The notes below the pieces were generated by a model. That model saw nothing but the letters and a program-made list of their open reading frames with translations. It ran no database searches and was not told the DNA's origin. A DNA stretch of 64,000 bases, from the NCBI GenBank assembly GCA_009797885.1, contig WNKP01000001.1, forward strand, positions 620,001-684,000, read 5' to 3'. Position numbers and translations under genes: made by a program. This document shows, piece by piece, positions 18,694 through 49,016 of this stretch (positions are counted from its first letter, which is position 1; every line of letters starts with the position of its first letter). Origin of the DNA: Flavobacteriaceae bacterium GF1 (GTDB lineage: Bacteria; Bacteroidota; Bacteroidia; Flavobacteriales; Flavobacteriaceae).

Positions 18694-18736
18694 TGATCTA
18701 TCTCAGTAACCACTATCCTTAAATCCCATACCTTTA
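18694..18736 (+). promoter_or_regulatory. Operator and class II promoter of cls
   Basis: TGATCTATCTCA (18694-18705) matches TGAY-N4-RTCA except one base. After 23 bp comes TACCTTTA (18729-18736). The start site is predicted near 18741, 21 bp before the ATG. Confidence 0.6.
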
Positions 18737-18761
18737 TTTCCGACCCTTCCCATTTCATAAA

Positions 18762-20174
18762 ATGTTGCTATTTCTGTTCATCATTGCTTATGTGGTCATT
18801 GCTTTTGCACTGGTCATAAGCTTGCTTATCAATGGGATTAGGCCGAGTAAAACCTTGGCCTGGCTTTTGGCCATTTTTACCATCCCCCTTGGGGGAATGC
18901 TACTGTATCTTATGTTTGGAAGGAACAGGCGAAAAAACAAGCTTTTTGTACTTAGCCGGGACTTTTTGGAGCATCTTCCAGAAATAACAGCTGCCCCCAT
19001 TCCATCCGATCTAGAAGGTCACAAGGTCCAAAAACTGATTGAAAGGACCACTAAAATTCCCATTACCGCATTGAACTCTTTGGTATTGCTCAAGGATGGT
19101 AAGGAAACCTTTGAGTCCATTTTTAAAGCGTTGGAACGCGCCCAAAACCACATTCATATCCAATACTATATTTTTGAAGATGGCCTATTGGCCCAGAAAT
19201 TCCTGGAGCTATTTGAAAAAAAGAGAAGGCAAAACGTCTCCATTAAGCTAATTTATGATGGTATAGGCAGCTATTCCTTGAGTAAAGGGTACATTCAAAA
19301 GCTCAAAAATATTGGGGTGGAAGTAGAACAGTTTCTTCCATTTAGGTTGGGAAGGTTTCTGGCGGCATTGAACTATAGGAACCACAGAAAAATTATTGTG
19401 GTGGATAACCAAGTGGGGTTCACGGGCGGCATAAATATCTCGGACAAATATCTTAAGGGGGATCCGGATTTGGGAAGGTGGCACGATATCCACCTGCAAT
19501 TGAAAGGGGAAGCCGTAGCTTTTCTTAACAAGGTCTTTTTGTCGGATTGGTATCTTGCAAGTGGAAAATCCGAAGGGGGGTCCAACCTGCCCATGACCGC
19601 TTCAAAAACGATAGCCCCCAACCAAAAAACCCATTTGCAGATAGTTCCCAGTGGGCCAGATGATGATTTTGCCATAATGGAACAGGTCTATTTTACCATT
19701 ATAAACCAGGCAAAGGAATACCTGTATATTGCCAACCCCTACATCATTCCAAGTCAGGCCATTTTACAAAGCCTTAAAACGGCTTCCCTTAGTGGGGTGG
19801 ATGTAAAACTATTGCTGTCCGCAACTACGGATAGTAAAGTAGTGGACTGGTGTGTTAGGGCATATTTTGAGGCGTATTTAAAAGCAGGCATAAAAATATA
19901 CCTATATCCGTATGGGTTCTTGCATAGCAAAATGGTGATAAGTGACACCAAAATTGCCAGTATTGGTACGGCTAACCTGGATGACCGAAGTCTACAACAA
20001 AACTATGAGGTCAATGTCATTATCTATGATCCAAAAATAAGTGCCGATCTTAAGAATGATTTTCTAAATAACTGTTCAAAATCCCAGGAAGTGGACCATG
20101 ATGGGTTCCTACAACGTAGTAGGCGGGCAAAAATACGGGAAGGATCGGCAAAACTTTTGAGTCCGCTCCTATAG
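18762..20174 (+). CDS. cls: Cardiolipin synthase (phospholipase D family)
   Basis: A 470-aa inner-membrane enzyme that joins two phosphatidylglycerols into cardiolipin. Two N-terminal membrane helices (residues 1-20 and 30-50, the latter SKTLAWLLAIFTIPLGGML) precede two HKD motifs: NHRKIIVVDNQVGFTGG near residue 207 and LHSKMVISDTKIASIGTANLD near residue 390. Length and layout are normal. A near-consensus operator with 23-bp spacing to a -7 box puts it in the stress regulon, which suggests membrane remodelling under that condition. The 3' end overlaps the convergent dehydrogenase gene by 6 bp. Confidence 0.94.
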   Translation: MLLFLFIIAYVVIAFALVISLLINGIRPSKTLAWLLAIFTIPLGGMLLYLMFGRNRRKNKLFVLSRDFLEHLPEITAAPIPSDLEGHKVQKLIERTTKIPITALNSLVLLKDGKETFESIFKALERAQNHIHIQYYIFEDGLLAQKFLELFEKKRRQNVSIKLIYDGIGSYSLSKGYIQKLKNIGVEVEQFLPFRLGRFLAALNYRNHRKIIVVDNQVGFTGGINISDKYLKGDPDLGRWHDIHLQLKGEAVAFLNKVFLSDWYLASGKSEGGSNLPMTASKTIAPNQKTHLQIVPSGPDDDFAIMEQVYFTIINQAKEYLYIANPYIIPSQAILQSLKTASLSGVDVKLLLSATTDSKVVDWCVRAYFEAYLKAGIKIYLYPYGFLHSKMVISDTKIASIGTANLDDRSLQQNYEVNVIIYDPKISADLKNDFLNNCSKSQEVDHDGFLQRSRRAKIREGSAKLLSPLL

Positions 20175-21176
20175 TAGTATTTGGGTCTTATATCCCAATT
20201 CGTTCTTACAAGGCCTATTTTCTTCCCAACAGTTCAGATTATGCACCGTGGTATCCGCAATATTCCGTAAAGCTTCCTCGGTCACAAATGCCTGGTGGGG
20301 TGTTAGCAGTACATTGGGCAGTGCTATTAACTCTTTAAGCTCCGTATCTTTTATGCCAGAGGTGTTGTCCCGAAAAAAGATTCCTTTTTCGGTTTCATAA
20401 ACATCCGTGGCATACCCCGCAATGGAACCACTCTCCAAGGCGTTCAATAGGTCCTTTGTCCTCACAACGGCCCCTCTGGCCGTATTGACCAAAACAATCC
20501 CCTTCTTCATAAGTTTGAAAAGTGATTCGTTGAACATATAATGGGTGTCCTGGGTAAGGGGTACATGGATGCTGATGATATCCGCCTTTCTACATAGCGT
20601 CCGCAAATCCATGTATTTTACATTGAACTGGTTTTCCAAATAATGGTTGACCACCAAATCATTTGCAATGACCTCACAACCGAAGGCGTGGAACAGCTTT
20701 ACCAAAAGTGACCCTATCCTTCCTGTTCCCACAATGCCAACCGTTTTTCCGTTCAAGTTGGAACCCACTAGATCATCGAGCAAAAAATTGTATGCTTTTA
20801 CTTGTTCATTGGCCAATAGCAATCTTCTGTTTAAGGCCAACACTAAACAAATGGTATGTTCCGCAATGGCATGGGGGGAATAATCCGGTGCATTCGCCAC
20901 TTTGATCCCCAATCGTTTTGCGGCAGTTGTGCTTACATTGTTGTACCCGGTAGAGCGTAAGGTGAGGTACTTGACCCCAAGTTCCTTCAACATCTCCATG
21001 ACCACCGAAGAAGCATCATCACCGGAAAAAATGGAAATGGCTTCATGACCGGCAGCCAAAGTGACCGTTGTACTGTCCAACGCCTCCGATACAAACGTTA
21101 TCCTATGCCTATCTTGATTGGCGTTTTTAAGTTTTTCGACTTCAAAATCCTTTGCACTATATACCAACACTTTCAT
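20169..21176 (-). CDS. D-2-hydroxyacid dehydrogenase (D-lactate dehydrogenase-like)
   Basis: A 335-aa NAD-dependent enzyme. The Rossmann motif is GIVGTGRIG near residue 150. The catalytic Arg is in VNTARGAVV, the Glu in the YETEKG region, and the catalytic His in LTPHQAFVTEEAL. The N-terminal RSTGYNNVS loop and overall pattern resemble LdhA-type D-lactate dehydrogenases, which regenerate NAD from pyruvate under low oxygen. The start overlaps the lipoprotein gene upstream by 20 bp. It is likely the last gene of the hsp20 operon, whose promoter carries the shared operator. Other 2-hydroxyacids cannot be excluded. Confidence 0.88.
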   Translation of the reverse strand: MKVLVYSAKDFEVEKLKNANQDRHRITFVSEALDSTTVTLAAGHEAISIFSGDDASSVVMEMLKELGVKYLTLRSTGYNNVSTTAAKRLGIKVANAPDYSPHAIAEHTICLVLALNRRLLLANEQVKAYNFLLDDLVGSNLNGKTVGIVGTGRIGSLLVKLFHAFGCEVIANDLVVNHYLENQFNVKYMDLRTLCRKADIISIHVPLTQDTHYMFNESLFKLMKKGIVLVNTARGAVVRTKDLLNALESGSIAGYATDVYETEKGIFFRDNTSGIKDTELKELIALPNVLLTPHQAFVTEEALRNIADTTVHNLNCWEENRPCKNELGYKTQILL

Positions 21177-22335: not shown

Positions 22336-22776
22336 CTAAGACACTTCAATAACTCTTTTGGGTTTCACTTTGGCCTCTTCCATTTTTGGAAGGCCCAATC
22401 TTAAAATGCCGTTTTTATAGGCGGCCTTTACTTCTTTGGATTGATCTACCGAACCGGGCAACTGCATACTCCTTTTGAAGGAATTATAGCGAAACTCCCT
22501 TCGGGTGTAATCCTCTTCCTTTTTGGTTTCCCCAGTTTTTTTAAGGGCAGAGATTTCCAAAACACCATCATTCATAGTGATTGCAAAATCCTCTTTTTCA
22601 AATCCCGGGGCTGCCAGTTCTATCTCAAAATTGGCTTTGTGTTCTTTTATGTTCATTGAGGGCATGGCCTTTTTAAGGTTGAAAAAATCATCATTGATGA
22701 ACGCGTCTTGATGAACAAAATCAAAAAGGCTTTCGTTCCATGGAAATCGGCCTCCCTTAAATTTAATAAGTGACAT
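22336..22776 (-). CDS. Hsp20 / alpha-crystallin small heat-shock protein
   Basis: A 146-aa holdase that binds unfolding proteins without ATP. I chose the ATG at 22776 (MSLIKFKGGRFPWNESLFD), the usual start in Bacteroidota Hsp20. The alpha-crystallin domain spans about residues 38-135, with FEIELAAPGFEKEDFAITM and the C-terminal GILRLGLPK motif. It heads a four-gene stress operon. Its promoter carries the TGAY-N4-RTCA operator at the class II distance, reminiscent of Acr/HspX in the mycobacterial DosR regulon. Confidence 0.95.
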   Translation of the reverse strand: MSLIKFKGGRFPWNESLFDFVHQDAFINDDFFNLKKAMPSMNIKEHKANFEIELAAPGFEKEDFAITMNDGVLEISALKKTGETKKEEDYTRREFRYNSFKRSMQLPGSVDQSKEVKAAYKNGILRLGLPKMEEAKVKPKRVIEVS

Positions 22777-22810
22777 AAAACTATAGTTTTGAATCAATGG
22801 ATATGGAATT

Positions 22811-22853
22811 CCAATTTATATGTGAAACTGCACCGGTGAAATGATTTGCATCA
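22811..22853 (-). promoter_or_regulatory. Operator and class II promoter of the hsp20 operon
   Basis: Minus strand: TGATGCAAATCA (22853-22842), 23 bp, then TAAATTGG (22818-22811). Predicted start near 22806. The operator overlaps the stop codon of the upstream gene. Confidence 0.8.
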
Positions 22854-23264: not shown

Positions 23265-23286
23265 AATTTTCCTTTTACGTGGGAAA

Positions 23287-23329
23287 TGAAGGTAGCGAAC
23301 CGGGCAATTTTGTAAAATGATTTAAATCA
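23287..23329 (-). promoter_or_regulatory. Operator and class II promoter of the 137-aa protein gene
   Basis: Perfect palindrome TGATTTAAATCA (23318-23329), 23 bp, then minus-strand TACCTTCA (23294-23287). Predicted start near 23282, 18 bp before the ATG. Confidence 0.8.
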
Positions 23330-23907: not shown

Positions 23908-24762
23908 TTATGGGTTATCGTTCAATTCAAGAATCGGCACTTTGGGTTCATACCCTATTTCCTTTACCAAGGGGTTGGAAAGTATGCTTCCGAAGAAGAG
24001 GTGTTTTCGGTTTAAAAAAGCCAACATATCACAATTTCTACTTTCCATGAATGCATTGATTCCCTTTACCAATTTAACGGCAGGCAAAAAATGCATCTCA
24101 TAATCCGTGCCATCCAAAATGTCCTGTAAAAGCAATCTGTTGGTCTGCTCTTCCTTATTGAGCTTTCCATCTTTGTCCCGATCAATATGGAGTACATTGA
24201 TTCTGGAATCATGCAGTTTTGCAATCTCTATGAGGTACTGCATCTCCTTTTTTTTGAAATTGGTCCTATAATCCGTTGGAAACAGGATTTCCCTTGGCGG
24301 CTGGAAAACCGGACTTTCCGGAATGGCAATAACGGGGCATGCCTTTATGGACTCCATAACCTTAACCGTATGGGTCCCAAAAATCCTGGCTTTGGACGCC
24401 GTTAATCCTTTGGTCCCCATGATAATGGTATCGATATCCTTTTTTGCCACCATTTGCCTAACGGCTTCAATAAGGCTATTAAATTCGCACCTGGTTTCAA
24501 AATGGTGTTTGGGATTGTCCGGCTCTAGATGGAGCATCCCCAATAAACGATCCATTCCCTCTTGGGACTTCCTTTTGAAGGTTTCATAAAGTTGTTCCCC
24601 CGGTTCGGGGACCATCATACTGTCCAGTGCATATCCGGATACCTGATAGGTGTTGAGCAAATAAAAATCACAACTAACATCCTTATAAAGCCGCTGTGCA
24701 TAGCGAATCGCGTTCAATGCATTTTTGGAATAGTCCGTAGGAAGTAAAATTCTCTTGTTCAT
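23908..24762 (-). CDS. Universal stress protein, tandem UspA domains
   Basis: A 284-aa protein with two Usp folds. The N-terminal domain begins MNKRILLPTDYSKNALNAIRYA and has the ATP-binding loop pattern G-2x-G-9x-G (MGTKGLTASKARIFGTH) near residue 118. The second domain, from about residue 160, begins EILFPTDYRTNF but lacks that loop and instead carries NRKHLFF. Usp proteins bind ATP or other ligands and promote survival in growth arrest. It is first gene of a two-gene unit with the eRF1-like gene. An operator-marked promoter lies just upstream. Confidence 0.93.
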   Translation of the reverse strand: MNKRILLPTDYSKNALNAIRYAQRLYKDVSCDFYLLNTYQVSGYALDSMMVPEPGEQLYETFKRKSQEGMDRLLGMLHLEPDNPKHHFETRCEFNSLIEAVRQMVAKKDIDTIIMGTKGLTASKARIFGTHTVKVMESIKACPVIAIPESPVFQPPREILFPTDYRTNFKKKEMQYLIEIAKLHDSRINVLHIDRDKDGKLNKEEQTNRLLLQDILDGTDYEMHFLPAVKLVKGINAFMESRNCDMLAFLNRKHLFFGSILSNPLVKEIGYEPKVPILELNDNP

Positions 24763-24780: not shown

Positions 24781-24823
24781 TAAAACTAGTCCGAGGCCCC
24801 TTAGTTTGCCATGATCTGAATCA
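24781..24823 (-). promoter_or_regulatory. Operator and class II promoter of the Usp gene at 23908
   Basis: Minus strand: TGATTCAGATCA (24823-24812), 23 bp, then TAGTTTTA (24788-24781). Predicted start near 24776, 14 bp before the ATG. Confidence 0.8.
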
Positions 24824-25733: not shown

Positions 25734-25776
25734 GTAAAATAGCTTTGATCGGAACAATGTGCCATGATTTTGGTCA
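25734..25776 (-). promoter_or_regulatory. Operator and class II promoter of the Usp gene at 24857
   Basis: Minus strand: TGACCAAAATCA (25776-25765), 23 bp, then TATTTTAC (25741-25734). Predicted start near 25729. Confidence 0.75.
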
Positions 25777-25890: not shown

Positions 25891-25933
25891 TGACCCAGAT
25901 CATTTCTTAAACATGTTTGCGAACTTACCTTGC
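25891..25933 (+). promoter_or_regulatory. Operator and class II promoter of the 123-aa protein gene
   Basis: TGACCCAGATCA (25891-25902), 23 bp, then TACCTTGC (25926-25933). Predicted start near 25938, 12 bp before the ATG at 25950. This supports that ATG over the earlier TTG at 25917. Confidence 0.78.
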
Positions 25934-25949: not shown

Positions 25950-26321
25950 ATGGGAAAAACCAATTTCATTACCTCGGCAACCAATAGCAAAAGCACTGAC
26001 TCCCCTTTATATGTGCTACTACAAAAGCGGAAAATGATTACTTCGCTAAGGGAAAAGCTAAACGTCATTTTTGCATCCACATCTTCATTGGAACACTTGG
26101 ATGAAGTAAGGGAAATCTGTTCCTCCTTAATTGATACCGAACATCGTCTTGACCTCATGATCGGGAGGTGTGGTGAGCATATTAAAAAGGAGGACAAACC
26201 CCACCTAAAAAAAGATATCGAGTTTTTATCGCTGGAAGTTGAATTGGTCAAGAATGCTTTGGAATTATACACCAGCTATTGTGACAACAACAAAATGAAA
26301 TCGCAACGGCCCTTTCATTGA
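25950..26321 (+). CDS. Small helical protein, unknown
   Basis: A 123-aa cytoplasmic protein, hydrophilic and mostly helical. It has a Ser/Thr-rich N-terminus (MGKTNFITSATNSKSTDS), then LREKLNVIFASTSSLEHLDEV and a long helix with charged heptads around DIEFLSLEVELVKNALEL. No family recognised. The ATG at 25950 is fixed by the operator-marked promoter; the earlier TTG lies upstream of the predicted transcript start. It is the only plus-strand gene between the first two Usp blocks and converges with the Usp gene at 26375. Confidence 0.7.
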   Translation: MGKTNFITSATNSKSTDSPLYVLLQKRKMITSLREKLNVIFASTSSLEHLDEVREICSSLIDTEHRLDLMIGRCGEHIKKEDKPHLKKDIEFLSLEVELVKNALELYTSYCDNNKMKSQRPFH

Positions 26322-28954: not shown

Positions 28955-28997
28955 CAAAAGTAACCGGAAGGATTTCCTTGGGAAATGATATGGGTCA
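28955..28997 (-). promoter_or_regulatory. Operator and class II promoter of the three-Usp operon
   Basis: Minus strand: TGACCCATATCA (28997-28986), 23 bp, then a consensus TACTTTTG (28962-28955). Predicted start near 28950. Confidence 0.85.
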
Positions 28998-29002
28998 ATA
29001 CC

Positions 29003-29862: not shown

Positions 29863-29905
29863 CTAAATTATAGCACCGCCATGCGAATTGTAATGATAAA
29901 TATCA
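29863..29905 (-). promoter_or_regulatory. Operator and class II promoter of the Usp gene at 29003
   Basis: Minus strand: TGATATTTATCA (29905-29894), 23 bp, then TAATTTAG (29870-29863). Predicted start near 29858, 10 bp before the ATG. Confidence 0.8.
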
Positions 29906-29908: not shown

Positions 29909-30958
29909 TCAGCCAATATGTTGAAGTGTTTCCGGGTCCAGAATAATAATGTTCCTATTTTCAACGGCAATCAGTCCCTCTTGCTTAAAATCCGAAAGTG
30001 TCCTTATAAGACTTTCGGTGGCCACCCCTGCAGCCCCAGCCAAGTCGCTTCTTGCAATTTTTAGGGGTTTCCCCATTTTGTTGCCCATGGCACGGGCAAA
30101 CTGTAAGAGCGTGTATGCCGTGCGCTTTCGTACAGAGCTATAGGCCATTTGTAAAAGTTGTTTTTTTATTTCGGCAATACTCTCCACCATTACCTCCAAA
30201 ACCTCCAGGGAAACATGTTGGTTTTCCTCCAAAATGGTCTTGAGCTGGGGCTTTGAAATCCCTGCGAGTTCAACATCTTCTAGGGCCACGGCAAATTCTT
30301 GATAGGGAACATAGTCCATTAATGAAGTGAAGCCCAGGAACTCATCGGTGGCATAAACCGACGTTATCAATTCCTTGCCCTGTTCGTCCAGTTTGTAGCA
30401 TTTTACGGAACCTTTAAGTATGAGGTAGATTTTATTGGAGTGGTCCCCTTCTTTATAAATGGATTCTTCCTTTTTAAAGGAAAGTATTTCCCCATGGTCG
30501 TCAAAAAAATTCTTCAACTGGTGTAATGTCCTTATTTCATTGTTCTTGACATTGTTTGTGCGCCAATCCGAAAACGCATTGTTAAGTGCCTCTGCCTTGT
30601 TCAGTCTACTATGGATGGTATTCAGTAATTCCTCCTCCTCAAAGGGCTTTGTAAGATAGTCATCCGCACCCAGGTCCATTCCTTTTCGTACATCATGCCT
30701 TTCGGTTTTGGCCGAGACGAACACAAAAGGTATTTTACAGGTTTTTGGGGAAGCCGAAAGGTGCTCCAAAACGGCATAGCCGTCCATTTCCGGCATCATT
30801 ATATCACATAATATTAAATCTGGCATTTCCTTTTTGGCCATTGCTATGGCCGCACGGCCATTGGCCACCGCACAAACGGAAAAACCGGAGAGGTCCAAAA
30901 GTTCTTCCATGTTTTCCCTCAGGGAAATATCATCTTCAACCAACAGGATCTTTTTCAT
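29909..30958 (-). CDS. Response regulator with CRP/FNR-type output domain (proposed regulator of the island)
   Basis: 349 aa in three parts. Residues 1-120 are a receiver with phospho-acceptor Asp52 (LCDIMMPEMDG) and Lys104 (YLTKPF). Residues about 145-265 are a cyclic-nucleotide-binding-type barrel (EGDHSNKIYLILKGSVK). Residues about 275-340 are a CRP helix-turn-helix whose recognition helix GVATESLIRTL keeps Glu315 and Arg319, spaced as the E-x3-R that reads TGA/TCA in CRP and FNR. The FNR cysteine cluster is absent, and the CRP cAMP pocket motif is not evident, so phosphorylation by the overlapping kinase is the likely input. The start overlaps the kinase gene by 23 bp. Surrounded by genes with TGAY-N4-RTCA operators, it is the prime candidate activator; direct binding is inferred. 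Confidence 0.9.
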   Translation of the reverse strand: MKKILLVEDDISLRENMEELLDLSGFSVCAVANGRAAIAMAKKEMPDLILCDIMMPEMDGYAVLEHLSASPKTCKIPFVFVSAKTERHDVRKGMDLGADDYLTKPFEEEELLNTIHSRLNKAEALNNAFSDWRTNNVKNNEIRTLHQLKNFFDDHGEILSFKKEESIYKEGDHSNKIYLILKGSVKCYKLDEQGKELITSVYATDEFLGFTSLMDYVPYQEFAVALEDVELAGISKPQLKTILEENQHVSLEVLEVMVESIAEIKKQLLQMAYSSVRKRTAYTLLQFARAMGNKMGKPLKIARSDLAGAAGVATESLIRTLSDFKQEGLIAVENRNIIILDPETLQHIG

Positions 30959-32465
30959 CGCGCTTTGATTTAATGGGAATCTTTAGGGTAAATGTAGAGC
31001 CACGACCAAGCTCGCTCTCAAATAAAATCTCTCCGCCCAGATTCACAATATGTTGCCGGGCAATGTTTAAACCAATTCCGGTCCCCTGGGTCGTCAAAAC
31101 ATTGCTGGCCCTGTAATATCTGTCAAAAATAAAGGGGTGGTCTTCCTTTGGTATCCCTACCCCCTGATCACGGATATGTATGAGAAGGCAATCCTTGGTT
31201 TCTTCCACCGCCAGTTCCACATTGGTCTCTTCAGAAGAATATTTTATGGCATTGAGCAAAAGATTGGACAAGGACAAGGCCATGATCTTTTCATCAAAAT
31301 TGACCATTATGCCATCTATTCCTTTGGGATATAGGATACGTTGGCCTTCCTTAAGTAAGGAGTTGGAGGTATAAATGACCTCATTGACGAGTTTGCTCAA
31401 AGGGAATGTGGTGGTATTGTACCTTACCTTTCCTGTTTCCAGTCGTTCTATGGAAAGAAAATCCGAAAGGATATTGTCCAAATATTTCACCTTGGATTTT
31501 ATGGTCTTGATGTGTTTGTCCCTTTTCTCCTGTTGATTGGAATCCGTATACTTGGACAAAAGCGTTATTGAGGTCAGGATACTGGTCAGGGGAGTTTTGA
31601 ACTCATGGGACACCAAAGAGAGGAATTTTGTCTTTAGTTCGTTCAACTCTTTTTCTTTTTTAAGTGCGTTCCTGAGTTGGAGGGTGCGTTCCTCAACGGT
31701 ATGCTCCAGCTTTTCAGTATAGTTCTTCCTATCCGTGATATCCAGTACTATGGCCACACAGACCTCTTTTTTCTCAATGTATGACAATTGTAAATGTACC
31801 TCAACAGGATAGGTAGTACCGTCCTTTCTTCTGTGGATCGTTTCAAAATCGATCTTGTCCTTTTTGTTTTTTGTTAAAGGCCAAATAAGTCTTTTTAGGC
31901 TTTCCTTGGTCAATTCCGGTTTAATATCCAAAACGGACATTTGATGGAATTCTTCTATGGTATAACCAAGATTCAGTTGGGCTCCATGGTTGATATTTAT
32001 AAATTTCAGGGTTTTGGTGTCAAATACATAGATTTCATTAAGCGACTCATTAAAAATACGGAACCAATGGCCTATGGCCTGTTCCGCCTTTTTCCGTTCG
32101 GTGATATCCACCACCAGGGCCATTACATATTTTTTTTGCAATAGCTTAAAAGGGTTGAGTCCAATTTCCAGGGGGAATTCGCTCCCATCTTGCCTTACCC
32201 CTTGCAAGTCCAGCCCAAGGCCCATATTTCTTCGTTTTCCCTTTTGCAAAAAACCATCAAAATATTTTCCATGCATGGACTGGGCACTGTTTGGCAACAA
32301 AACCTTAAGAAATTGGCCGTTCAATGTCTCCCCCGAGTAACCGAACATGTGATTGGCCACGGAATTACTGGCCACAATCTGCTGTTTGTCATTTACGATA
32401 AGAATCCCTTCGGACACCGCTTCCGACAATATTCTAAAAATATCATTTTCCTCAAATAGTTTCAT
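30936..32465 (-). CDS. PAS-PAS sensor histidine kinase, FixL-like first PAS
   Basis: 509 aa, no membrane helix. PAS1 spans residues about 10-120, PAS2 about 130-245, then a coiled linker (residues 250-280), phospho-acceptor His287 in VSHEFKTPL, and a HATPase domain with NLLLNAIKYS, RDQGVGIP and GTGIGLNIA. PAS1 aligns gap-free to the FixL haem PAS as I remember it: His65 in SMHGKYFDGF falls on the haem-ligating His200 of Bradyrhizobium FixL. The distal Arg220 position is Leu85. A haem gas sensor is therefore possible but unproven; many PAS domains share this helix. It overlaps its regulator by 23 bp. An operator of the regulon lies 23 bp upstream of its ATG. Confidence 0.9.
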   Translation of the reverse strand: MKLFEENDIFRILSEAVSEGILIVNDKQQIVASNSVANHMFGYSGETLNGQFLKVLLPNSAQSMHGKYFDGFLQKGKRRNMGLGLDLQGVRQDGSEFPLEIGLNPFKLLQKKYVMALVVDITERKKAEQAIGHWFRIFNESLNEIYVFDTKTLKFININHGAQLNLGYTIEEFHQMSVLDIKPELTKESLKRLIWPLTKNKKDKIDFETIHRRKDGTTYPVEVHLQLSYIEKKEVCVAIVLDITDRKNYTEKLEHTVEERTLQLRNALKKEKELNELKTKFLSLVSHEFKTPLTSILTSITLLSKYTDSNQQEKRDKHIKTIKSKVKYLDNILSDFLSIERLETGKVRYNTTTFPLSKLVNEVIYTSNSLLKEGQRILYPKGIDGIMVNFDEKIMALSLSNLLLNAIKYSSEETNVELAVEETKDCLLIHIRDQGVGIPKEDHPFIFDRYYRASNVLTTQGTGIGLNIARQHIVNLGGEILFESELGRGSTFTLKIPIKSKRDEKDPVG

Positions 32466-32487
32466 GGGTTGGGAATTGGGTGAACAC

Positions 32488-32530
32488 TGATTTACATCAT
32501 AGAGGGAAAGTGAATCTTTTGTTATTTTAA
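32488..32530 (+). promoter_or_regulatory. Operator and class II promoter of the TerB-like gene (also next to the kinase start)
   Basis: TGATTTACATCA (32488-32499), 23 bp, then TATTTTAA (32523-32530). Predicted start near 32535, 18 bp before the ATG at 32553. Toward the kinase, a 23-bp spacing would fall in its start codon, so the operator could only repress or tune that gene. Confidence 0.75.
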
Positions 32531-33782: not shown

Positions 33783-33821
33783 GATGCTGACCAAAAAAGC
33801 TTTGTCCTCTTTTTGGAATCA

Positions 33822-33895
33822 CTAAAATAGATTGCCCATAACTACTGCCCCATGATACAGGTCATTTTGTAAGCGGCCCTTGATGGCAATATTTG
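33822..33895. promoter_or_regulatory. Bidirectional operator: Usp (32937) and DUF2267 gene
   Basis: One operator, TGATACAGGTCA (33853-33864). Leftward after 23 bp comes TATTTTAG (33829-33822), start near 33817. Rightward after 23 bp comes AATATTTG (33888-33895), start near 33900. Confidence 0.75.
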
Positions 33896-35402: not shown

Positions 35403-35445
35403 CCAATGTAAGCATGGAACATCAAAAAGAAAATGATCTGGGTCA
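35403..35445 (-). promoter_or_regulatory. Operator and class II promoter firing leftward into the gene-free region
   Basis: Minus strand: TGACCCAGATCA (35445-35434), 23 bp, then TACATTGG (35410-35403). Predicted start near 35398. In the plus direction no -7 box lies at 23 bp. Confidence 0.7.
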
Positions 35446-35504: not shown

Positions 35505-35547
35505 TGATATTAATCAGCAAATTTTCAATTTAATTATTGGAGGTTTG
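35505..35547 (+). promoter_or_regulatory. Operator and class II promoter of the metallo-hydrolase/rhodanese gene
   Basis: TGATATTAATCA (35505-35516), 23 bp, then GAGGTTTG (35540-35547), which keeps A and TTTG of the -7 consensus. Predicted start near 35552, 56 bp before the ATG. Confidence 0.7.
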
Positions 35548-38012: not shown

Positions 38013-38086
38013 CAAAAGAAAAGAGGGTTCTGCATCTGGGCAATGACCTGAATCATTTTGAAGGTGTGACCCCTGGAATACTTTTG
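38013..38086. promoter_or_regulatory. Bidirectional operator: DUF2953-GerW unit and ABC exporter operon
   Basis: Operator TGACCTGAATCA (38044-38055). Rightward after 23 bp comes consensus TACTTTTG (38079-38086), start near 38091. Leftward after 23 bp comes TTCTTTTG (38020-38013), start near 38008. Confidence 0.85.
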
Positions 38087-40974: not shown

Positions 40975-40983
40975 GCCCGCATC

Positions 40984-42740: not shown

Positions 42741-42783
42741 TAAAGTTACCTTCAACAAATGCAATGGTAAATGACGCGCGTCA
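42741..42783 (-). promoter_or_regulatory. Operator and class II promoter of the Usp gene at 41826
   Basis: Perfect palindrome TGACGCGCGTCA (42772-42783), 23 bp, then minus-strand TAACTTTA (42748-42741). Predicted start near 42736. Confidence 0.82.
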
Positions 42784-42875: not shown

Positions 42876-44390
42876 CTAGGGAATGGCCTTATCGGAAGTA
42901 TCCCATTCCTTTTTGAAAAACCTTAACCCGATAAAAACCAGCATCGCAACAACGCATAACCAACCCAATACATCGCCAAGAACCGGATACAACACCTTGA
43001 TACCGCTAACGGGAACATTGGAATACAGTATTCCTTCCCCGGTCTCATCCCAAACCATGTGGGCCAATTCATTTCCGTGATAATCCGCAGCATAGGAATA
43101 TCCATTATAGGTTGGTCGGACAAATGAAAATCCATTTTCTATTGTACTGGTAAGATACCATGGAGCCGGACTTTTGGGCCAGTCATAGGAGGGGGAAAGC
43201 ATAATGTCAACATCACTTTTTGCTGCCTGTCTTAAGTAAGAAGGGAAACCCATATCCCTGCAAATCGTAATTCCTATTTTGCCATAAGGGGTTTCTGTGG
43301 ATTGAATGGTTTCCGGGCCTTTGTTAAAAACTCCGGATTCACCAAATGGTCCCATCCCTAGTAGGTACCTTTTTGTATAATCCAAAAGTATTTTGCCGTT
43401 TCCATTAATAAGAAGATGCTTGTTGGCCCCTTTTCCTTCCTTAGGGAAATAGGCATAAGTGATGCTTAAAAAAATGTTGTTTTCCTTAGCAATTTCCTTG
43501 TACTTTTCCCGTAACCTGTCCTCTTCTTCTTCCTCTATAACCATGGCGTATTCTTGAAAAGAGACAATTTTTGCTTCATTTTCCGCTGCTTCTTTGGTCA
43601 ATTCCGAGATCTGCGTCATTGTTTTTTCAAAAGGCGAAGTTGTTCTTGAATTAAAAATGGAGGACATTGGGACGACTTCCCCATCTTCAGGAATTAGCAC
43701 AACCGCCGCAATTTTTACCGTATCTGGTTTGGGGCTGAAGTAAGAAGTGGTTTTCACCGCACCAAACAAAAAAACCAACAGCAAAACACCGGCATATATT
43801 GTGGCCAACTTCCGGGTTTTTTCCCATTTGAACCGATTTTCCCATAGATAGTTGACAATGGAGAACAACCAGGAATGAATGAAAACCAGTATCCAAACCC
43901 CAAATAAGGAGCGGACCTGTATAAACTCAAATGTCCCATAACCAAAAGAGCTTATGGTTCCTGCTCCATCATCAAACGGGCCTTCTAAAGTGGACAAAAA
44001 GAAAATGGCCGTTGTTAGGATTGGGAAAATCAATGTAGACCATACGCCAAAATTCTTGAATTTTGGATATATCAATCGATCTAGCATAAAGGGCAAAAAC
44101 CAAATGATTGCCAATAGCGTGCTTCTAATAAGGCCAAAAGAAATGGTCATCCAAGCTTCATCCAACTCAAACAGTCCCCAAAGCGCAATGTTCATACTTA
44201 GAACAAATCCGAGCAGTGTCAGCCAAATCCCCTTTTTAGCAGGTTGGGTCCTTATAAACCTAAGAATGAAAATTGGCGCTATCAGTATTGCCATTCCAAT
44301 TGAGGGGAAGAGCTTGCTCAGCCTGGTAAACATAAAAATGCCGAAACCCAGAAAGAAGTAAAGTATTGGTACGTGTTTATTGGAAATCAT
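42876..44390 (-). CDS. Lnt-like membrane CN hydrolase
   Basis: 504 aa. The N-terminal half has about six to seven membrane helices. From about residue 225 follows a periplasmic nitrilase-fold domain with the catalytic triad Glu (SFQEYAMV), Lys (DYTKRYLLG) and Cys (ITICRDMGFPSY). This is the layout of apolipoprotein N-acyltransferase, but sequence around the motifs is atypical and length is close to family norm. It may acylate or modify a lipoprotein or amine under stress rather than being the housekeeping Lnt. It is transcribed alone from an operator-marked promoter with a 70-nt leader. Confidence 0.82.
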   Translation of the reverse strand: MISNKHVPILYFFLGFGIFMFTRLSKLFPSIGMAILIAPIFILRFIRTQPAKKGIWLTLLGFVLSMNIALWGLFELDEAWMTISFGLIRSTLLAIIWFLPFMLDRLIYPKFKNFGVWSTLIFPILTTAIFFLSTLEGPFDDGAGTISSFGYGTFEFIQVRSLFGVWILVFIHSWLFSIVNYLWENRFKWEKTRKLATIYAGVLLLVFLFGAVKTTSYFSPKPDTVKIAAVVLIPEDGEVVPMSSIFNSRTTSPFEKTMTQISELTKEAAENEAKIVSFQEYAMVIEEEEEDRLREKYKEIAKENNIFLSITYAYFPKEGKGANKHLLINGNGKILLDYTKRYLLGMGPFGESGVFNKGPETIQSTETPYGKIGITICRDMGFPSYLRQAAKSDVDIMLSPSYDWPKSPAPWYLTSTIENGFSFVRPTYNGYSYAADYHGNELAHMVWDETGEGILYSNVPVSGIKVLYPVLGDVLGWLCVVAMLVFIGLRFFKKEWDTSDKAIP

Positions 44391-44464: not shown

Positions 44465-44507
44465 CGAAGTTAGTGGGGGTCATGAGCCTGCACAATGATC
44501 CCGATCA
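44465..44507 (-). promoter_or_regulatory. Operator and class II promoter of the Lnt-like gene
   Basis: Minus strand: TGATCGGGATCA (44507-44496), 23 bp, then TAACTTCG (44472-44465). Predicted start near 44460. Confidence 0.8.
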
Positions 44508-44551
44508 TGAGTAAAAACACCAAGGACGCATAAATTCCTGAAGTGAAGTCA

Positions 44552-45724
44552 CTACTTTACCATAGCTGGCAAAATATAGCGCTCCAAAATCTTGAACGGC
44601 TTTGGTTTTGAAGTGTAATTCCCCCCTGTAAATACAACAACGGTTTCCAATTTGGGAATGACAATAATTTTTTGACCACCCCATCCACTGGCATGGAATG
44701 TGGATATGGGCATGCCCGAAACCTCAAATTCATCCAACCACCAGGAATAGGAATAGCCCGTTTCGTCCATGTCTTCCCCAGGAACCTGAATATTCATGTT
44801 ATGACCAAAGGGAATCTTACTTTTCCCAACCCATTCCTTGGAAAGGATGCGGTTGCCCTTCCATGTGCCCCCATTTAGATAGACAATCCCAATCTTAAGC
44901 ATGTCCCGTGGTTTTAGGCGCAATGCTCCGGCCGATTCATAGACCCCATTCCCAAATTGCAAGGACCAATCAAAATCTGCTATCCCCAAAGGTCCAAACA
45001 AATATTTTTGGGAAAACTCGGCAATGGTCATTTGGGAAGCGTTCCTGATGATTTCCCCCAAAAGAATCTGGCTGCCCCCATAATAGGAGAAGGAACTGCC
45101 AGGCTCATGGACCAACTCCCCTTCCAAAATATAACTGACCGGGTCTTTTTTAGCATACCAAATCGCAATCATTGGATTACTACGGCTACTGTATGGAGCA
45201 TTCCACTCGGCCCAATTCAGTCCAGAGGTCATGGTCAACAAATGTTCAATTGTAATGCCTTCCTTCTCTAGGGTCCTTAGGTGTTGGTGCTCTGGCAAAA
45301 AGTCAAAAATGGACTGATCCACACTTTTAATGAATCCCTTCTCCACGGCCAAACCCACAAGGGCGGAAGTAACGCTCTTGGTCACGGACATTACACTATG
45401 CAACTCATTGCGGTTCCAATGCACAACCGTGTCATGATGGGACGGTGCGTCCCAATGATAGCGGTGTCCTGGGAAGTACTCCTCCAAAACCAGTCGTCCA
45501 TTTTTATGGATGAGTACCGAATGTATTTCATTAAAATTCCCTTTTTGGATTTTTCGCAATGCCTTAAAAATCCGAGTTGAATCAACACCAACATCTTGCA
45601 GTGTTCCAATGGCAATCCCATCTTCCAATTGTTGTGGTACCTGATACGGATATTGTCCGGAGGTATCATTTCGACAACACAACAAAAACAGGAGACACCA
45701 TGGGACAAGGATGCGTTTTACCAT
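44552..45724 (-). CDS. Serine hydrolase, class C beta-lactamase fold, lipoprotein
   Basis: 390 aa with a signal ending in a lipobox-like LLFLLCC (Cys16/17). The nucleophile motif S-x-x-K is MSVTKSVTSAL, the second motif YYGGS stands for Y-x-N, and the third is H-x-G in HASGWGG. It contains the GLNWAEW and EPGSSFSYYGG segments of the beta-lactamase/esterase-type (EstB-like) family. Periplasmic or envelope esterase/peptidase; substrate unknown. Its start overlaps the stop of the upstream Usp gene by 1 bp, so it is translated from that operator-driven transcript. Confidence 0.9.
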   Translation of the reverse strand: MVKRILVPWCLLFLLCCRNDTSGQYPYQVPQQLEDGIAIGTLQDVGVDSTRIFKALRKIQKGNFNEIHSVLIHKNGRLVLEEYFPGHRYHWDAPSHHDTVVHWNRNELHSVMSVTKSVTSALVGLAVEKGFIKSVDQSIFDFLPEHQHLRTLEKEGITIEHLLTMTSGLNWAEWNAPYSSRSNPMIAIWYAKKDPVSYILEGELVHEPGSSFSYYGGSQILLGEIIRNASQMTIAEFSQKYLFGPLGIADFDWSLQFGNGVYESAGALRLKPRDMLKIGIVYLNGGTWKGNRILSKEWVGKSKIPFGHNMNIQVPGEDMDETGYSYSWWLDEFEVSGMPISTFHASGWGGQKIIVIPKLETVVVFTGGNYTSKPKPFKILERYILPAMVK

Positions 45725-46572
45725 TATATCCGCTTTTTATTAATGCTAAGAAGTGGAATATCCCCTTTGGAGGACATCCGCTTTACTTTGTCAATGTCGG
45801 TAAATACTTCCAGAAATCCCCTATGCCCGCGTTCCAACATGACCAAAAGATGGTTTTTGCTTTTTTTTAGGTAATTGCGTAGTCCTTTGAAGACATTGTC
45901 GTTTTTAATAAAATGAAACTTGATTTTCCTGTAATCCACTTTCTGTTGCAGCATTTCTTTGAACCATTCCATTTGGTCCCTGGCATCATTCCCTTCATCC
46001 GTGACAATATGGACCACATTTATTTTTGCTTTTAATGGTTTTGCCAAGGTAGTTGTGACCCAATCCAATGCGTGGATATCGCTTTCCTCAAAATCTGTGG
46101 CATAAGAAATACTATTGACCTCAAAATTGTCCAAAATGGGGGGAACGGCAATTAGGGGACAGGTACTCTTGGTTATCATGCTCTTTGTGCTACTGCCCAT
46201 AATGGCATCCTTGAGGGCACTTTTTCCCTTCATTCCCATGATCAGGAGCCGGGCATCAAAACTATGGATGGCATCAATCAATTCTTCCTCAAAAATGGCA
46301 TTTTCCCTGACTACAACGCTCAATTGCCCTTTTTTGGGAAGTACGCCCAAATGTGTCTTACAGAAGTCGGACAATTTTTGCAGCTCGTCTTCAAAAGCCT
46401 TTTTCTGCAACTTGGCAAAAGTCATGCTCATAGGGGTTACCAATCCTATATTGATATCGAAAACATGGAGTACGACCAATTTTAACCCGAGCTTTCTACC
46501 CAGGGCATAACCAAATTTGAGCGTGGGAATGGCATTTTTGGAATAATCTATTGCGCAGAGTACAGTTTTCAT
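45724..46572 (-). CDS. Universal stress protein, tandem UspA domains
   Basis: 282 aa, beginning MKTVLCAIDYSKNAIPTLKFG. The first domain has an intact loop MGMKGKSALKDAIMGSS near residue 133. The second (about residue 160, SISYATDFEESDIHAL) lacks it and has LERGHRGFLEVF near residue 252. It is coupled by a 1-bp overlap to the serine hydrolase gene. The predicted transcript start is only about 4 bp before the ATG, so the message may be almost leaderless. Confidence 0.92.
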   Translation of the reverse strand: MKTVLCAIDYSKNAIPTLKFGYALGRKLGLKLVVLHVFDINIGLVTPMSMTFAKLQKKAFEDELQKLSDFCKTHLGVLPKKGQLSVVVRENAIFEEELIDAIHSFDARLLIMGMKGKSALKDAIMGSSTKSMITKSTCPLIAVPPILDNFEVNSISYATDFEESDIHALDWVTTTLAKPLKAKINVVHIVTDEGNDARDQMEWFKEMLQQKVDYRKIKFHFIKNDNVFKGLRNYLKKSKNHLLVMLERGHRGFLEVFTDIDKVKRMSSKGDIPLLSINKKRI

Positions 46573-46580
46573 TTTTGGGA

Positions 46581-46623
46581 CTAAGCTAGGTGTACTGGCA
46601 AATCGAGGAAATGACCTATATCA
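46581..46623 (-). promoter_or_regulatory. Operator and class II promoter of the Usp-hydrolase unit
   Basis: Minus strand: TGATATAGGTCA (46623-46612), 23 bp, then TAGCTTAG (46588-46581). Predicted start near 46576. Confidence 0.78.
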
Positions 46624-46640
46624 GTTAACCACGCTATGGT

Positions 46641-46683
46641 TGACCCAGGTCATTTTGAAGCATAAGAAAAACAATTAAATTCC
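46641..46683 (+). promoter_or_regulatory. Operator and class II promoter of the 84-aa protein gene
   Basis: TGACCCAGGTCA (46641-46652), 23 bp, then TAAATTCC (46676-46683). Predicted start near 46688. This divergent region has a separate operator for each direction, 17 bp apart. Confidence 0.72.
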
Positions 46684-46706
46684 GAGTCTGTTTTTACGTA
46701 CTGCCA

Positions 46707-46961
46707 ATGCTTCGTATTAGTTTAAAAGTAATAAATCTGGAAGATTCCCCTCGGGCGGGGAAAATTGTCAAACGTCTCAATAGGGTTGGTTATGTGGAAA
46801 AGACCACGATTGATCTGGACAACAAAACCCTAAGTTTTGAATATGCCTCGTATCGCGATATGGACGGTGCCATAATGGAGTTGAGAAAAATGGGGGTGAA
46901 GTACATCCGAACGATGGATTCCAAAAGAATGGTGGACGAAAAGACCAACACCTCAGTATAA
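46707..46961 (+). CDS. Small HMA-like (ferredoxin-fold) protein without metal cysteines
   Basis: 84 aa. The pattern ISLKVINLEDSPRAGKIVKRL..VGYVEKTTIDLDNKTLSFEY..MDGAIMELRKMG matches the beta-alpha-beta-beta-alpha-beta layout of heavy-metal-associated domains. The CxxC is replaced by EDSPRAG, so copper binding as in CopZ is unlikely. A protein-interaction or regulatory role is possible. It has its own operator-marked promoter and faces the convergent CbpM gene with a 13-bp gap. Confidence 0.65.
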   Translation: MLRISLKVINLEDSPRAGKIVKRLNRVGYVEKTTIDLDNKTLSFEYASYRDMDGAIMELRKMGVKYIRTMDSKRMVDEKTNTSV

Positions 46962-46974
46962 ATTCGTCTTTCCA

Positions 46975-47274
46975 CTACCGATAAAAATCCAAATTGCGCA
47001 ACTTCCTTTGGAGCAGTTCCACTTCTTGTTCCAATGTATAAATCTGTTGTAGTAGTTGATGAATTGCATGCAGCCCTTCCGGGTTGATATCCAATTCCTT
47101 GTGTAACCGCACCATTTTTTCCAGTATTGGCAATGCTTCAAGGGCTACAACAGCTTCTTTGTTTTGTTTCTCAATCGTTAAAATATCATACTCATTCAGC
47201 ACTTGAACAAAAGATTCATCCACCCTATTGATCTTGCAAAATGTTTTGATTGAAATATACATCTCGGAATTCAT
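46975..47274 (-). CDS. cbpM: Chaperone modulator CbpM
   Basis: 99 aa. A MerR-like N-terminus (YISIKTFCKINRVDESFVQVL) is followed by LPILEKMVRLHKELDINPEGLHAI and a C-terminal coiled coil (LLQQIYTLEQEVELLQRKLR). This is the CbpM family, which binds the J-domain of CbpA and inhibits it. It lies 6 bp downstream of the CbpA gene. Last gene of the operon 48954-46975. Confidence 0.9.
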   Translation of the reverse strand: MNSEMYISIKTFCKINRVDESFVQVLNEYDILTIEKQNKEAVVALEALPILEKMVRLHKELDINPEGLHAIHQLLQQIYTLEQEVELLQRKLRNLDFYR

Positions 47275-47280
47275 GAACCG

Positions 47281-48162
47281 TTATACATTAGTTTTCCTGA
47301 GTGCCTCAAATAGCCTTTTCTGTTCCTGGGTAAGGGTCTGGGGCAGGTCCACCTGATAGGTCAAAAACAGATCTCCGCGTTCCGTTTCCCTTTTGTATTT
47401 TGGGAATCCCTTACCCTTAAGTTTTACCTTGGCCCCATTTTTTGTGCCTGGTTTAATGTGAAGCCTTACTCTTCCAGATAAGGTATCCACCTTGACCTCG
47501 CCGCCCAGTACCGCTATAGTGAGCGGTATCCGTACCGATTTATAAAGGTTTGCCCCGTCTCTTTTGTAATCGGTATTATTTACAATGGCAAATGTGATGT
47601 AAAGATCACCGGATGGGCCGCCGTTGGTTCCTGGACCCCCATACCCCTTGATTTTAATGGTCTGCCCATCCTCAATTCCCACTGGGATGGCAATTCGTAT
47701 TTTCTTGCCGTTGATCGTTAAGGTTTGCTTTTGTGCGGTTTGGACATCCGTGAGTTGCAGCTGGAGTTCCGCATTATAGTCCGCGCCCCTGAATTGTACC
47801 GTTCTTTGGCGACCGCTAAATCCACGACCACCAAACATGGCCTCAAAGAAATCCGAAAAATCCCTGCTTTGGTCCGTATAGGTATACGCCCCTTGTCCGC
47901 GCCCCCTTTCCCGCTTTGCTTTTTCAAATTCATCCGCATATTGCCAGTCCTTTCCATATTCATCGTACTTCTTTCTTTTCTTTGGATCCGACAATACTTC
48001 GTGGGCCTCGTTTATTTGTTTAAACTTCTTTTCTGCTTCGGCATTCTTGGGGTTCAAATCCGGGTGGTATTTCCGGGCCAGTTTTCGATAGCTTTTTTTA
48101 ATGGCTTCAGCACTGGCGTTTTTAGGAACCCCCAACACCTTATAATAGTCTATGAAATCCAT
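47281..48162 (-). CDS. cbpA: DnaJ-family co-chaperone CbpA
   Basis: 293 aa. The J-domain (residues 1-70) has the HPD motif in [11 protein letters not shown] Gly/Arg/Phe-rich linker (about 75-125, with [11 protein letters not shown]) is followed by two C-terminal substrate-binding barrels ([38 protein letters not shown]). There is no zinc-finger domain, so it is of the CbpA and not the DnaJ type. It stimulates DnaK in stress or stationary phase. It abuts the DUF6544-like gene upstream and CbpM downstream, under one operator. Confidence 0.94.
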
Positions 48163-48954
48163 TCAATCAATTCTATAGTCTATAATCTCGCCGTTGAAAT
48201 ATTCAAAATCACCTTCATCCAAATTCCAAATGGCCGTCATTTTCGTTGGCACATAAAGACCCTCCAGGGTTTCGTAATTTTCCAGTTTGCCCGTAAACCG
48301 CTCCAATAGATCCCCTTTGTATCGTATGGACTCAAAACGCTCTATAAGTCCCTGGTCATTAAAAAAGAATGTTCCTTCCGTTTGGGTACTCCCGAGGCTA
48401 ATTTTGGCCCTCACCGATTTCCCATCCAATTCCTCCCAACGAATTGCCGGACTCAAAAAACCCACTGGGTAGAGCGGAAGCTCGGCAAGACACCTGTTCA
48501 GGGCACTTTCATTGATTTCTTTGGATAGTTGTACTCCCATGGCCCTTAGTCCCAAAAAACTGACCCTGACCTCTCCCTGACCGTTAATACATTTGTCCTT
48601 CACAAAAATGGGGAAACTTCTAGCCGCCCATACAAAGCCCGGGGGTCCGGAGGTCATGACCTGTTTTGCAGTAAAATCCAGCCAGTTGCCCCCTTCTTTT
48701 TGCCGTATTCTCCCCCTTTGCTTCATGCTAAGATGACAATCCCTGCACTTTCCCACGACCTTTGCCTTGACCAAATACGCCCTGACAATTTTTGGCAGTA
48801 CCTTTAGTTCTTCCCTGGTCACCGGTTGCTCCGTATTCCCTGATAGATTAAAAAGTGTGTCCCTATCCTTTTCGGTCATATGGTAAAAACGGTAGTGCCC
48901 AGCAAAAAGGGATAGTATTAAAAGGAAGATTACCGCAACGATCAGAAGCTCCAT
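48163..48954 (-). CDS. DUF6544-like membrane-anchored protein
   Basis: 263 aa with one N-terminal helix (LLIVAVIFLLILSLFAGHY) and a soluble part. It contains LPKIVRAYLVKAKVVGK, MKQRGRIRQKEGGNWLDFTAKQVM, PLYPVGFLSPAIRWEELD and the C-terminal VPTKMTAIWNLDEGDFEYF. This is the pattern of the DUF6544 (formerly DUF6920) family of unknown function, whose fold resembles lipid-binding outer-membrane carrier domains. First gene of the cbpA-cbpM operon; its stop abuts the cbpA ATG. Promoter with a consensus -7 box. Confidence 0.78.
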   Translation of the reverse strand: MELLIVAVIFLLILSLFAGHYRFYHMTEKDRDTLFNLSGNTEQPVTREELKVLPKIVRAYLVKAKVVGKCRDCHLSMKQRGRIRQKEGGNWLDFTAKQVMTSGPPGFVWAARSFPIFVKDKCINGQGEVRVSFLGLRAMGVQLSKEINESALNRCLAELPLYPVGFLSPAIRWEELDGKSVRAKISLGSTQTEGTFFFNDQGLIERFESIRYKGDLLERFTGKLENYETLEGLYVPTKMTAIWNLDEGDFEYFNGEIIDYRID

Positions 48955-48973
48955 AGTGACGTTGTTGAAAAGT

Positions 48974-49016
48974 CAAAATTAAAATACAGGTCAAAATCGG
49001 GTTATGATACAAGTCA
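48974..49016 (-). promoter_or_regulatory. Operator and class II promoter of the DUF6544-cbpA-cbpM operon
   Basis: Minus strand: TGACTTGTATCA (49016-49005), 23 bp, then consensus TAATTTTG (48981-48974). Predicted start near 48969, 15 bp before the ATG. Confidence 0.85.

Follow-up and report, generated by a model that had tools for sequence, protein, structure and literature searches.

A candidate low-oxygen regulon of Flavobacteriaceae marked by a palindrome at a fixed distance from the promoter box

We analyzed a 64-kb window of DNA from the marine Flavobacteriaceae bacterium GF1 (C11:620001-684000 of the 5.28-Mb assembly; positions below are those of the window unless a contig or locus is named), in which an island at 18694-49016 carries many copies of the palindrome TGAY-N4-RTCA, nearly all of them 23 bp from a promoter box. 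We propose, with a probability of roughly 0.7, that these promoters belong to a low-oxygen or dormancy-type stress regulon of Flavobacteriaceae, controlled by a FixL-like histidine kinase and by RR-Crp, a protein that combines a receiver with a CRP-type output, and that an FNR-like protein and a second RR-Crp share the same promoter code. What was computed here is the motif with its spacing, conservation and position ahead of genes, together with the domain make-up of the proteins and the residues conserved in them. The first-pass annotation of this DNA had described the promoters and overlooked the regulator pair inside the island, two further clusters of sites in the genome and the low-oxygen gene content.

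A palindrome 23 bp from the promoter box

The window contains 20 exact TGAYN4RTCA palindromes, 17 of them within the island, where base composition alone would give 4.9 and 2.3, respectively; the first-pass count of 17 exact palindromes and one near match in the island was confirmed. The composite motif (TGAYN4RTCA, then TAnnTT exactly 23 bp on) has 17 copies in the window, the outermost reaching 22813 and 49016. Across 100 dinucleotide shuffles of the window its mean count was 0.06 and its maximum 1, so that the rarity expected of it in shuffled sequence was borne out. When TAnnTT was counted at each gap of 0–59 bp from a palindrome in the window, the 23-bp gap held 17 and any other gap 0–2.

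A box at 23 bp had been described for each island palindrome. This holds in the form TAnnTT, on at least one side, for 16 of the 17 palindromes, with one (44496/44507) having a box on both sides; the sole box of the remaining palindrome, 35505(+), is GAGGTTTG. The near-match operator at 18694(+), TGATCTATCTCA, has one mismatch and the box TACCTTTA, and three promoters (33853(+), 35505(+) and 38055(-)) have boxes that retain only TTTG. The candidate promoters thus number 21 (17 exact composites, the near match and the three TTTG-only boxes) rather than the 20 first claimed. An open reading frame (ORF) lies downstream of 15 of the 17 exact composites, and for 13 of these 15 the end of the 8-bp box is 8–39 bp from the start codon; the exceptions are 44507(-), at 74 bp, and 23329(-), at 22 bp from a TTG or 112 bp from the first ATG.

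To follow the promoters into other genomes, we scanned GTDB for relatives of RR-Crp (E of 1e-3 or less, at which weak matches may cover one domain only) and analyzed the best 80 of at least 526 stretches, mainly from Croceivirga, Allomuricauda/Flagellimonas, Maribacter and Aquimarina. One relative (L059), at 99% identity, could belong to the same species; it is within the gap, box-to-ATG, kinase and half-site word counts below and outside the site logo. The promoter layout recurred in these relatives: each of the 80 loci has at least one composite, and 480 of 1254 strand-counted palindromes have TAnnTT at 23 bp, compared with 3–28 at each other gap of 10–59 bp and 68 at gap 0. Twelve half-site words were tested in the same way, and a box stood at 23 bp for 38% of TGA palindromes and for 0–4.4% of those built on the other eleven words. 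(Among the control words ACTYN4RAGT stood highest, 12 of its 274 palindromes in the relatives having the box at the 23-bp gap.) Away from the ends of the loci, 458 of 627 palindromes have a box on at least one side. A downstream frame follows 464 of the 480 sites, and in these the distance from box to ATG has a median of 25 bp (interquartile range 21–31; 87% within 5–60 bp). Among the targets, a 135-aa gene divergent from the kinase gene is the most constant (73/80 loci), followed by universal stress protein (USP) genes, and 94 of the 480 sites precede frames unmatched in the reference set from GF1 itself. The fixed palindrome–23 bp–box layout is therefore real and far above chance.

The layout can be placed on a known promoter. 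A passage of PMC9723704 puts the sigma-A box of Flavobacterium psychrophilum, TAnnTTTG, at -12 to -5 and describes short leaders. With TA at -12 and a gap of 23 bp, the palindrome is computed to span -47 to -36 and to be centered at -41.5, which agrees with the class II CRP/FNR position that the first-pass annotation had assigned to it. Class II sites are defined by a center near -41.5, and their promoters can do without a -35/-33 element. A gonococcal FNR site is listed at 41.5 (PMC1802743, in part). In the spacer logo nothing resembles a -33 TTG, and T-richness adjoining the palindrome is all that stands out, which fits the earlier suggestion that the operator stands in place of the -33 element. 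RTCA is followed by T in 93% of the GF1 sites (57 gathered out of 61) and in 97% of 463 distinct sites from 79 relatives. The operator is asymmetric: among 468 relatives' sites, T follows the promoter-proximal half in 455, and the promoter-distal flank, read in the same way, is G in 223, T in 156, A in 57 and C in 32. A regulon with class II geometry is supported by the fixed 23-bp spacing, the position ahead of start codons, the composites in all 80 loci and the computed center. The main text of PMC9723704 does not mention Crp or Fnr.

The candidate promoters of the window are as follows; each is an exact composite and a predicted operator/promoter unless described otherwise.

18694..18736 (+): near-match operator (one mismatch) and box TACCTTTA, 25 bp ahead of a PLD-type gene (PLD domains)
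22813..22853 (-): HSP20 gene 22336-22797
23289..23329 (-): uncharacterized 137-aa gene; TTG at 22 bp, first ATG at 112 bp
24783..24823 (-): USP gene 23908-24762
25736..25776 (-): USP gene 24857-25708
25891..25931 (+): uncharacterized gene 25950-26321
28957..28997 (-): USP gene ending at 28090, its start downstream of a TTG at 28998
29865..29905 (-): gene 29003-29848, a USP by resemblance to its neighbors
32488..32528 (+): uncharacterized 135-aa gene 32553-32960, divergent from the kinase gene
33824..33864 (-): USP gene 32937-33794
33853 (+): TTTG-only box AATATTTG on the opposite side of the 33824..33864 palindrome, ahead of DUF2267 gene 33919-34371
35405..35445 (-): composite with no convincing downstream ORF
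35505..35547 (+): palindrome with TTTG-only box GAGGTTTG, 60 bp ahead of MBL-rhodanese gene 35608-37029
38044..38084 (+): genes at 38111-41709 (uncharacterized gene, HlyD, FtsX permease, ABC ATPase), a likely operon from their spacing
38055 (-): TTTG-only box TTCTTTTG on the opposite side of the 38044..38084 palindrome, ahead of a gene ending at 37504(-)
42743..42783 (-): USP gene 41826-42719
44467..44507 (-): 74 bp ahead of CN_hydrolase gene 42876-44390
44496..44536 (+): opposite side of the palindrome it has in common with 44507(-); no convincing ORF
46583..46623 (-): USP gene 45724-46572, then beta-lactamase-fold gene 44552-45724, in a presumed operon
46641..46681 (+): 84-aa ORF 46707-46961, shorter than the length threshold of the initial ORF list
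48976..49016 (-): DUF6544 gene 48163-48954, with a DnaJ gene (47281) and a MerR_2 gene (46975) close behind on the same strand

The predicted targets in the window thus include USPs, HSP20, DUF2267, MBL-rhodanese, an ABC export operon, CN-hydrolase and DUF6544. The composite at 35445(-) faces a 390-bp gap and may mark the start of a small RNA. At 46975-48162(-), the MerR_2-type protein adjoins a DnaJ/DnaJ_C protein; these neighbors resemble the CbpM-CbpA pair.

The kinase and the receiver-CRP protein

Two genes inside the island encode the proposed regulators.

29909..30958 (-): RR-Crp, 349 aa, with receiver, cNMP-binding-type domain and HTH_Crp_2 (Pfam); proposed to bind the sites
30936..32465 (-): histidine kinase with two PAS domains, HisKA and HATPase (Pfam), PAS1 being FixL-like; proposed oxygen sensor

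The domains of RR-Crp were assigned with E-values of 9.1e-31 (Response_reg), 3e-18 (cNMP_binding) and 3.6e-14 (HTH_Crp_2). The kinase gene lies directly upstream on the same strand and overlaps the start of the RR-Crp gene, and a kinase gene is directly upstream on the same strand in all 80 related loci. In an alignment of 81 RR-Crp proteins (the 80 relatives and the window's own), the phospho-acceptor Asp52 of the receiver is present in 81/81, which together with the adjoining kinase fits a two-component system. Its output is cNMP_binding plus HTH_Crp_2, not the LuxR type of FixJ, and Pfam and fold comparison (best matches CRP, GlxR, NtcA and FNR) place it in the CRP/FNR superfamily with a C-terminal HTH. 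The structure model (pLDDT 77.5, pTM 0.41) was used for domain folds only, its domain arrangement being unreliable.

CRP and FNR read the TGA core through a Glu and an Arg of the recognition helix. In RR-Crp, E315, S316, L317, I318 and R319 of this helix are invariant (E-S-L-I-R in 81/81), and E315 and R319 are presumably the two TGA-reading positions. The E-x-x-S-R helix of FNR, which reads a TTGAT half-site, was found in none of the 81 proteins; Ile318 stands where FNR has Ser, and this substitution fits a T after RTCA instead of the A of TTGAT-N4-ATCAA. An Fe-S cysteine set was not found either, the only Cys conserved in more than 70% of the 81 proteins being Cys51 of the receiver, beside Asp52, and we reject RR-Crp as a simple FNR on this ground. 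A cAMP-CRP regulon is disfavored as well: the sites do not have the TGTGA form, and the RR-Crp cassette, GFTS...E221-[SYF], differs when compared by eye from the cAMP-binding residues of CRP, E72/R82/S83.

For the kinase, PAS1 points to heme. It matches the FixL heme domain 1d06 with an E-value of 1.2e-11, and also BjFixL and DosP in the PDB; its 14 distinct PDB sequence matches at E of 0.001 or less are FixL (7), DosP/DOS (6) and 10jx (1), the last being the sensor protein FG214, titled a heme-binding PAS. For an AlphaFold model of PAS1 (pLDDT 84), the top 29 fold matches comprise 27 heme PAS domains of FixL, FG214 (10jx) and DosP/DOS. His65 aligns with the proximal heme histidine of FixL and is His in 80/80 related kinases, whereas residues 59-64 and 66-71 on either side are variable. 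In 24 of 80 relatives the alignment with the window kinase breaks in two around PAS2, and 27 of 80 kinases are only 380–424 aa long, which indicates that PAS1, not PAS2, is the part always kept. From these alignments, PAS1 probably binds heme through His65.

One palindrome in the window (32465-32499) is common to the kinase gene and the 135-aa gene; 22 bp separate it from the start codon of the kinase, and it has no box on the kinase side. Of 79 relatives, 42 have a palindrome 13–24 bp ahead of this start codon. This position suggests feedback on the kinase–regulator operon, and feedback repression is possible.

The promoter code beyond the window, and alternative readings

Genome-wide, the composite with a 23-bp spacer occurs 61 times compared with 3 for a backward control; with a 22-bp spacer the counts are 6 and 1. 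The first-pass annotation had seen the motif in the island only. Within the window this was correct, as the exact palindromes outside the island (13276, 52338 and 56732) have no TAnnTT at 23 bp on either side, but 44 of the 61 genome composites lie outside the window, which rules out an island-only regulon. Three clusters hold 38 of the 61: the window (17), C11:88-128k (11) and C22:374-414k (10). The genome encodes four HTH_Crp_2 proteins above 50 bits, all inside these clusters: one RR-Crp in each C11 cluster, and the FNR-like protein and another Crp-type protein in C22. Three of the four (the FNR-like protein and both RR-Crp) have an A-T-E-x-x-I-R recognition helix. Four weaker HTH_Crp_2 matches lie outside the clusters, one of them above the family cut-off (36.4 bits, with an internal stop).

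In the C22 cluster the predicted targets are cbb3 CcoNO (site 215 bp before the ATG), HemN (20 bp), a gene group leading to NosZ, and USP-like genes, the last of these named by eye. Sites in C11:88-128k precede HSP20, BON, FtsH, flavin reductase, MlaE and YkuD genes; the stretch also holds P-type cation ATPase, archease and RtcB genes. The second RR-Crp, with an 851-aa kinase (L039:10059-13733), lies inside this cluster with HSP20, FtsH, BON and P-type ATPase genes. Isolated sites precede genes for pyruvate formate-lyase (PFL), PPDK, NadA, HPF (Ribosomal_S30AE), cytochrome c assembly, cytochrome c, a thioredoxin-like protein, an amino-acid permease, an acetyltransferase-like protein and DoxX, these ten proteins being assigned by Pfam. 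A downstream frame was found for 41 of 42 genome sites when a 60-aa frame with any start codon up to 250 bp away was accepted, and because this rule is loose, single genome-wide assignments are tentative.

The FNR-like protein (L041:4667-5359) is encoded near cbb3 oxidase genes that carry the same promoter layout. It scores 117.6 bits against the Fnr family, under the 228-bit cut-off. By eye, its sequence opens with a CxxC but lacks a third N-terminal Cys spaced as in E. coli; one Cys lies near the position of C122 in FNR.

Of 247 genomes of the phylum, 210 have the composite in at least one copy. RR-Crp was found (E of 1e-40 or less) in 38 of the 247, a search that scored at most 8 candidates per genome, so that some absences may be misses. 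The family (26 genomes, GF1 left out) has 662 composites compared with 108 for the backward control, and the order and class (34 genomes) have 350 compared with 93. Family genomes with RR-Crp have a median of 26 composites (n = 15, GF1 left out), those without it 17 (n = 11; p = 7e-4).

We propose the following mechanism. Low oxygen would be sensed by the FixL-like PAS of the kinase, with heme probably on His65, and would release the kinase by analogy with FixL; the kinase would phosphorylate Asp52 of the RR-Crp receiver. Dimers of RR-Crp would then bind TGAY-N4-RTCA where it is centered at -41.5, with 23 bp between it and the TA of the sigma-A box, replace the -33 element and activate transcription in class II fashion. 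The FNR-like protein near the cbb3 genes and the second RR-Crp would use the same promoter code. Low oxygen is suggested by the targets, which include cbb3 CcoNO, the NosZ region, HemN, PFL, PPDK, NadA, HPF, cytochrome c assembly, USPs and HSP20. Oxygen limitation induces cbb3 and heme synthesis in F. psychrophilum, according to a passage of PMC9723704. We lean slightly toward a wider version of this proposal, in which, in Flavobacteriaceae and in Bacteroidia more widely, one protein with a FixJ-type receiver and a FixK/CRP-type output is phosphorylated by a FixL-like kinase and so becomes a CRP/FNR activator gated by phosphorylation. It would act strictly in class II, in a phylum that has a sigma-A code of its own, and control a dormancy-like USP/chaperone island, with an FNR-like protein reading the same code in parallel for cbb3, HemN and PFL.

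Several points weigh against the proposed regulon. We infer the pairing of sites with regulator, heme binding, the oxygen signal, phosphorylation, and activation rather than repression. Two of the 17 window composites have no convincing downstream ORF: behind 35445(-) the frames on its own strand are all 53 aa or shorter, and behind 44496(+) there are only a 22-aa frame and 66–68-aa frames antisense to another gene. The heme-PAS evidence concerns the window kinase and its relatives, and the 851-aa kinase of the second island lies outside it. The column of the distal Arg, a feature of FixL, holds Leu85 in the window kinase, and Arg in 44 and Leu in 28 of the 80 relatives, so the ligand or affinity may differ from that of FixL. 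The other two of the top 29 PAS1 fold matches (ranks 23 and 28) are 4gcz, a chimera of a blue-light LOV photoreceptor and FixL, with further LOV domains from rank 30 on. The 11 family genomes in which no RR-Crp was found nevertheless carry 178 composites compared with 44 for the control, and in the order and class the fold over control does not differ between genomes with RR-Crp (3.67, n = 22) and without it (4.0, n = 12). Since composites exceed the control without RR-Crp, FNR-like proteins must account for many sites, and RR-Crp presence as the full explanation of site number is rejected outside the family. Finally, G+C in the N4 core is 59/112 in the two RR-Crp islands and 2/40 in the FNR-like island (p = 1.7e-8) at equal regional G+C, which means that the regulators may read partly different sites.

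Some of these points suit other explanations. The wiring could be right and the signal another, with PAS1 sensing nitric oxide, carbon monoxide or redox state, or holding no heme; the distal Leu, a column that varies among R, L, V, K and S in relatives, and the flavin-binding LOV domains among the fold matches would agree with this. We consider it unlikely, given the predominance of heme PAS domains among the top fold matches, a His65 invariant in 80 relatives, and predicted targets that are low-oxygen genes.

A little less probable again is that the FNR-like protein alone drives all three clusters, with RR-Crp a modulator or acting at few sites. The persistence of composites in family genomes without a found RR-Crp, the FNR-like gene's location near cbb3 genes with the same layout, and the recognition helix it shares with both RR-Crp proteins are all in its favor. 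It sits poorly with composites kept close by at all 80 RR-Crp loci, with the richer complement of family genomes that have RR-Crp, and with the N4 difference. Regional base composition is not supported as the source of that difference, as all regions have a G+C of 0.42–0.43; the cores hint that the binding specificities of RR-Crp and the FNR-like protein are partly separate. From the family, order and class counts, we take the promoter code to be shared, with FNR-like proteins as probable further readers of it.

It is improbable that the palindromes are repressor operators that block sigma-A promoters until stress removes the bound protein. The palindrome just ahead of the kinase start in about half of the relatives would suit repression of that operon, but the fixed 23-bp distance, the computed center at -41.5 and a spacer without a -33 element are features of an activator, and a repressor would tolerate varied operator positions. 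Chance or base composition can be dismissed on the shuffles (17 vs 0.06), the backward pattern, the other half-site words, the other gaps (480 at gap 23 vs 3–28) and the conservation.

Comparison with known systems

We know of few Bacteroidota regulons with an exact promoter rule. The operator, 23 bp and TAnnTT make up a testable code, readable in the sequence of many of the family's genomes; it ties uncharacterized genes to low oxygen and predicts how these bacteria prepare for oxygen lack. If the proposed wiring is true, it would be a one-protein shortcut of the FixJ-FixK cascade, with a CRP/FNR protein gated by phosphorylation, and would show class II activation working with the divergent sigma-A promoters of Bacteroidota. 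In searches of an open-access library we found neither this layout of the motif described nor a receiver-CRP regulator controlled by a FixL-like kinase, which is weak evidence of absence as subscription papers fall outside it.

The output of FixJ is of the LuxR type, which RR-Crp lacks. Unlike in the FixL-FixJ-FixK system of rhizobia (PMC4999443, in part), receiver and CRP/FNR output here are in one protein with no separate fixK step, the GF1 kinase has Leu at the distal Arg, and the phylum and sigma-A box are others. The systems are alike in having cbb3 and HemN among their genes, which in GF1 stand behind the shared motif, and in a heme-PAS-type kinase and a final activator of CRP/FNR type.

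From the FNR/ANR regulons of Proteobacteria the GF1 sites differ in the T after RTCA (93–97%), in place of the A of TTGAT-N4-ATCAA, and in the box, TAnnTTTG instead of TATAAT; RR-Crp also lacks the Fe-S cysteine set. FNR/ANR targets include USP, HemN and cbb3, as here. The center at -41.5 (gonococcal FNR site, PMC1802743, in part) and the TGAY-N4-RTCA core are further likenesses. The lxa locus of Burkholderia cenocepacia is also a large island, with six USPs and a proposed ANR-type regulator, in a distant host; the parts of PMC6127331 and PMC9104464 covered here mention no receiver-CRP regulator. In NmpRSTU of Myxococcus xanthus, a heme-dependent kinase stands over a regulator that controls cbb3 and HemN genes, but the heme domain is globin-type and the route has several steps, with an NtrC-like regulator (PMC11841059, in part).

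By its Pfam domains the window regulator is CRP-type and not of the DosR type. DosR itself belongs to the NarL type and binds different sites, and its regulon places many USPs under two-component control at low oxygen, as we propose here. The DosR dormancy regulon of Mycobacterium is named in a passage of PMC6127331. The promoters of GF1 share the TAnnTTTG box at -12 to -5 and the short leaders with Flavobacteriaceae sigma-A promoters (PMC9723704, in part), and differ in having an operator at the position of the -33 element with fixed spacing. The ingredients are thus known in other phyla: FixL kinases, class II CRP/FNR activation, heme kinases over cbb3 and HemN, and USP-rich hypoxia islands.

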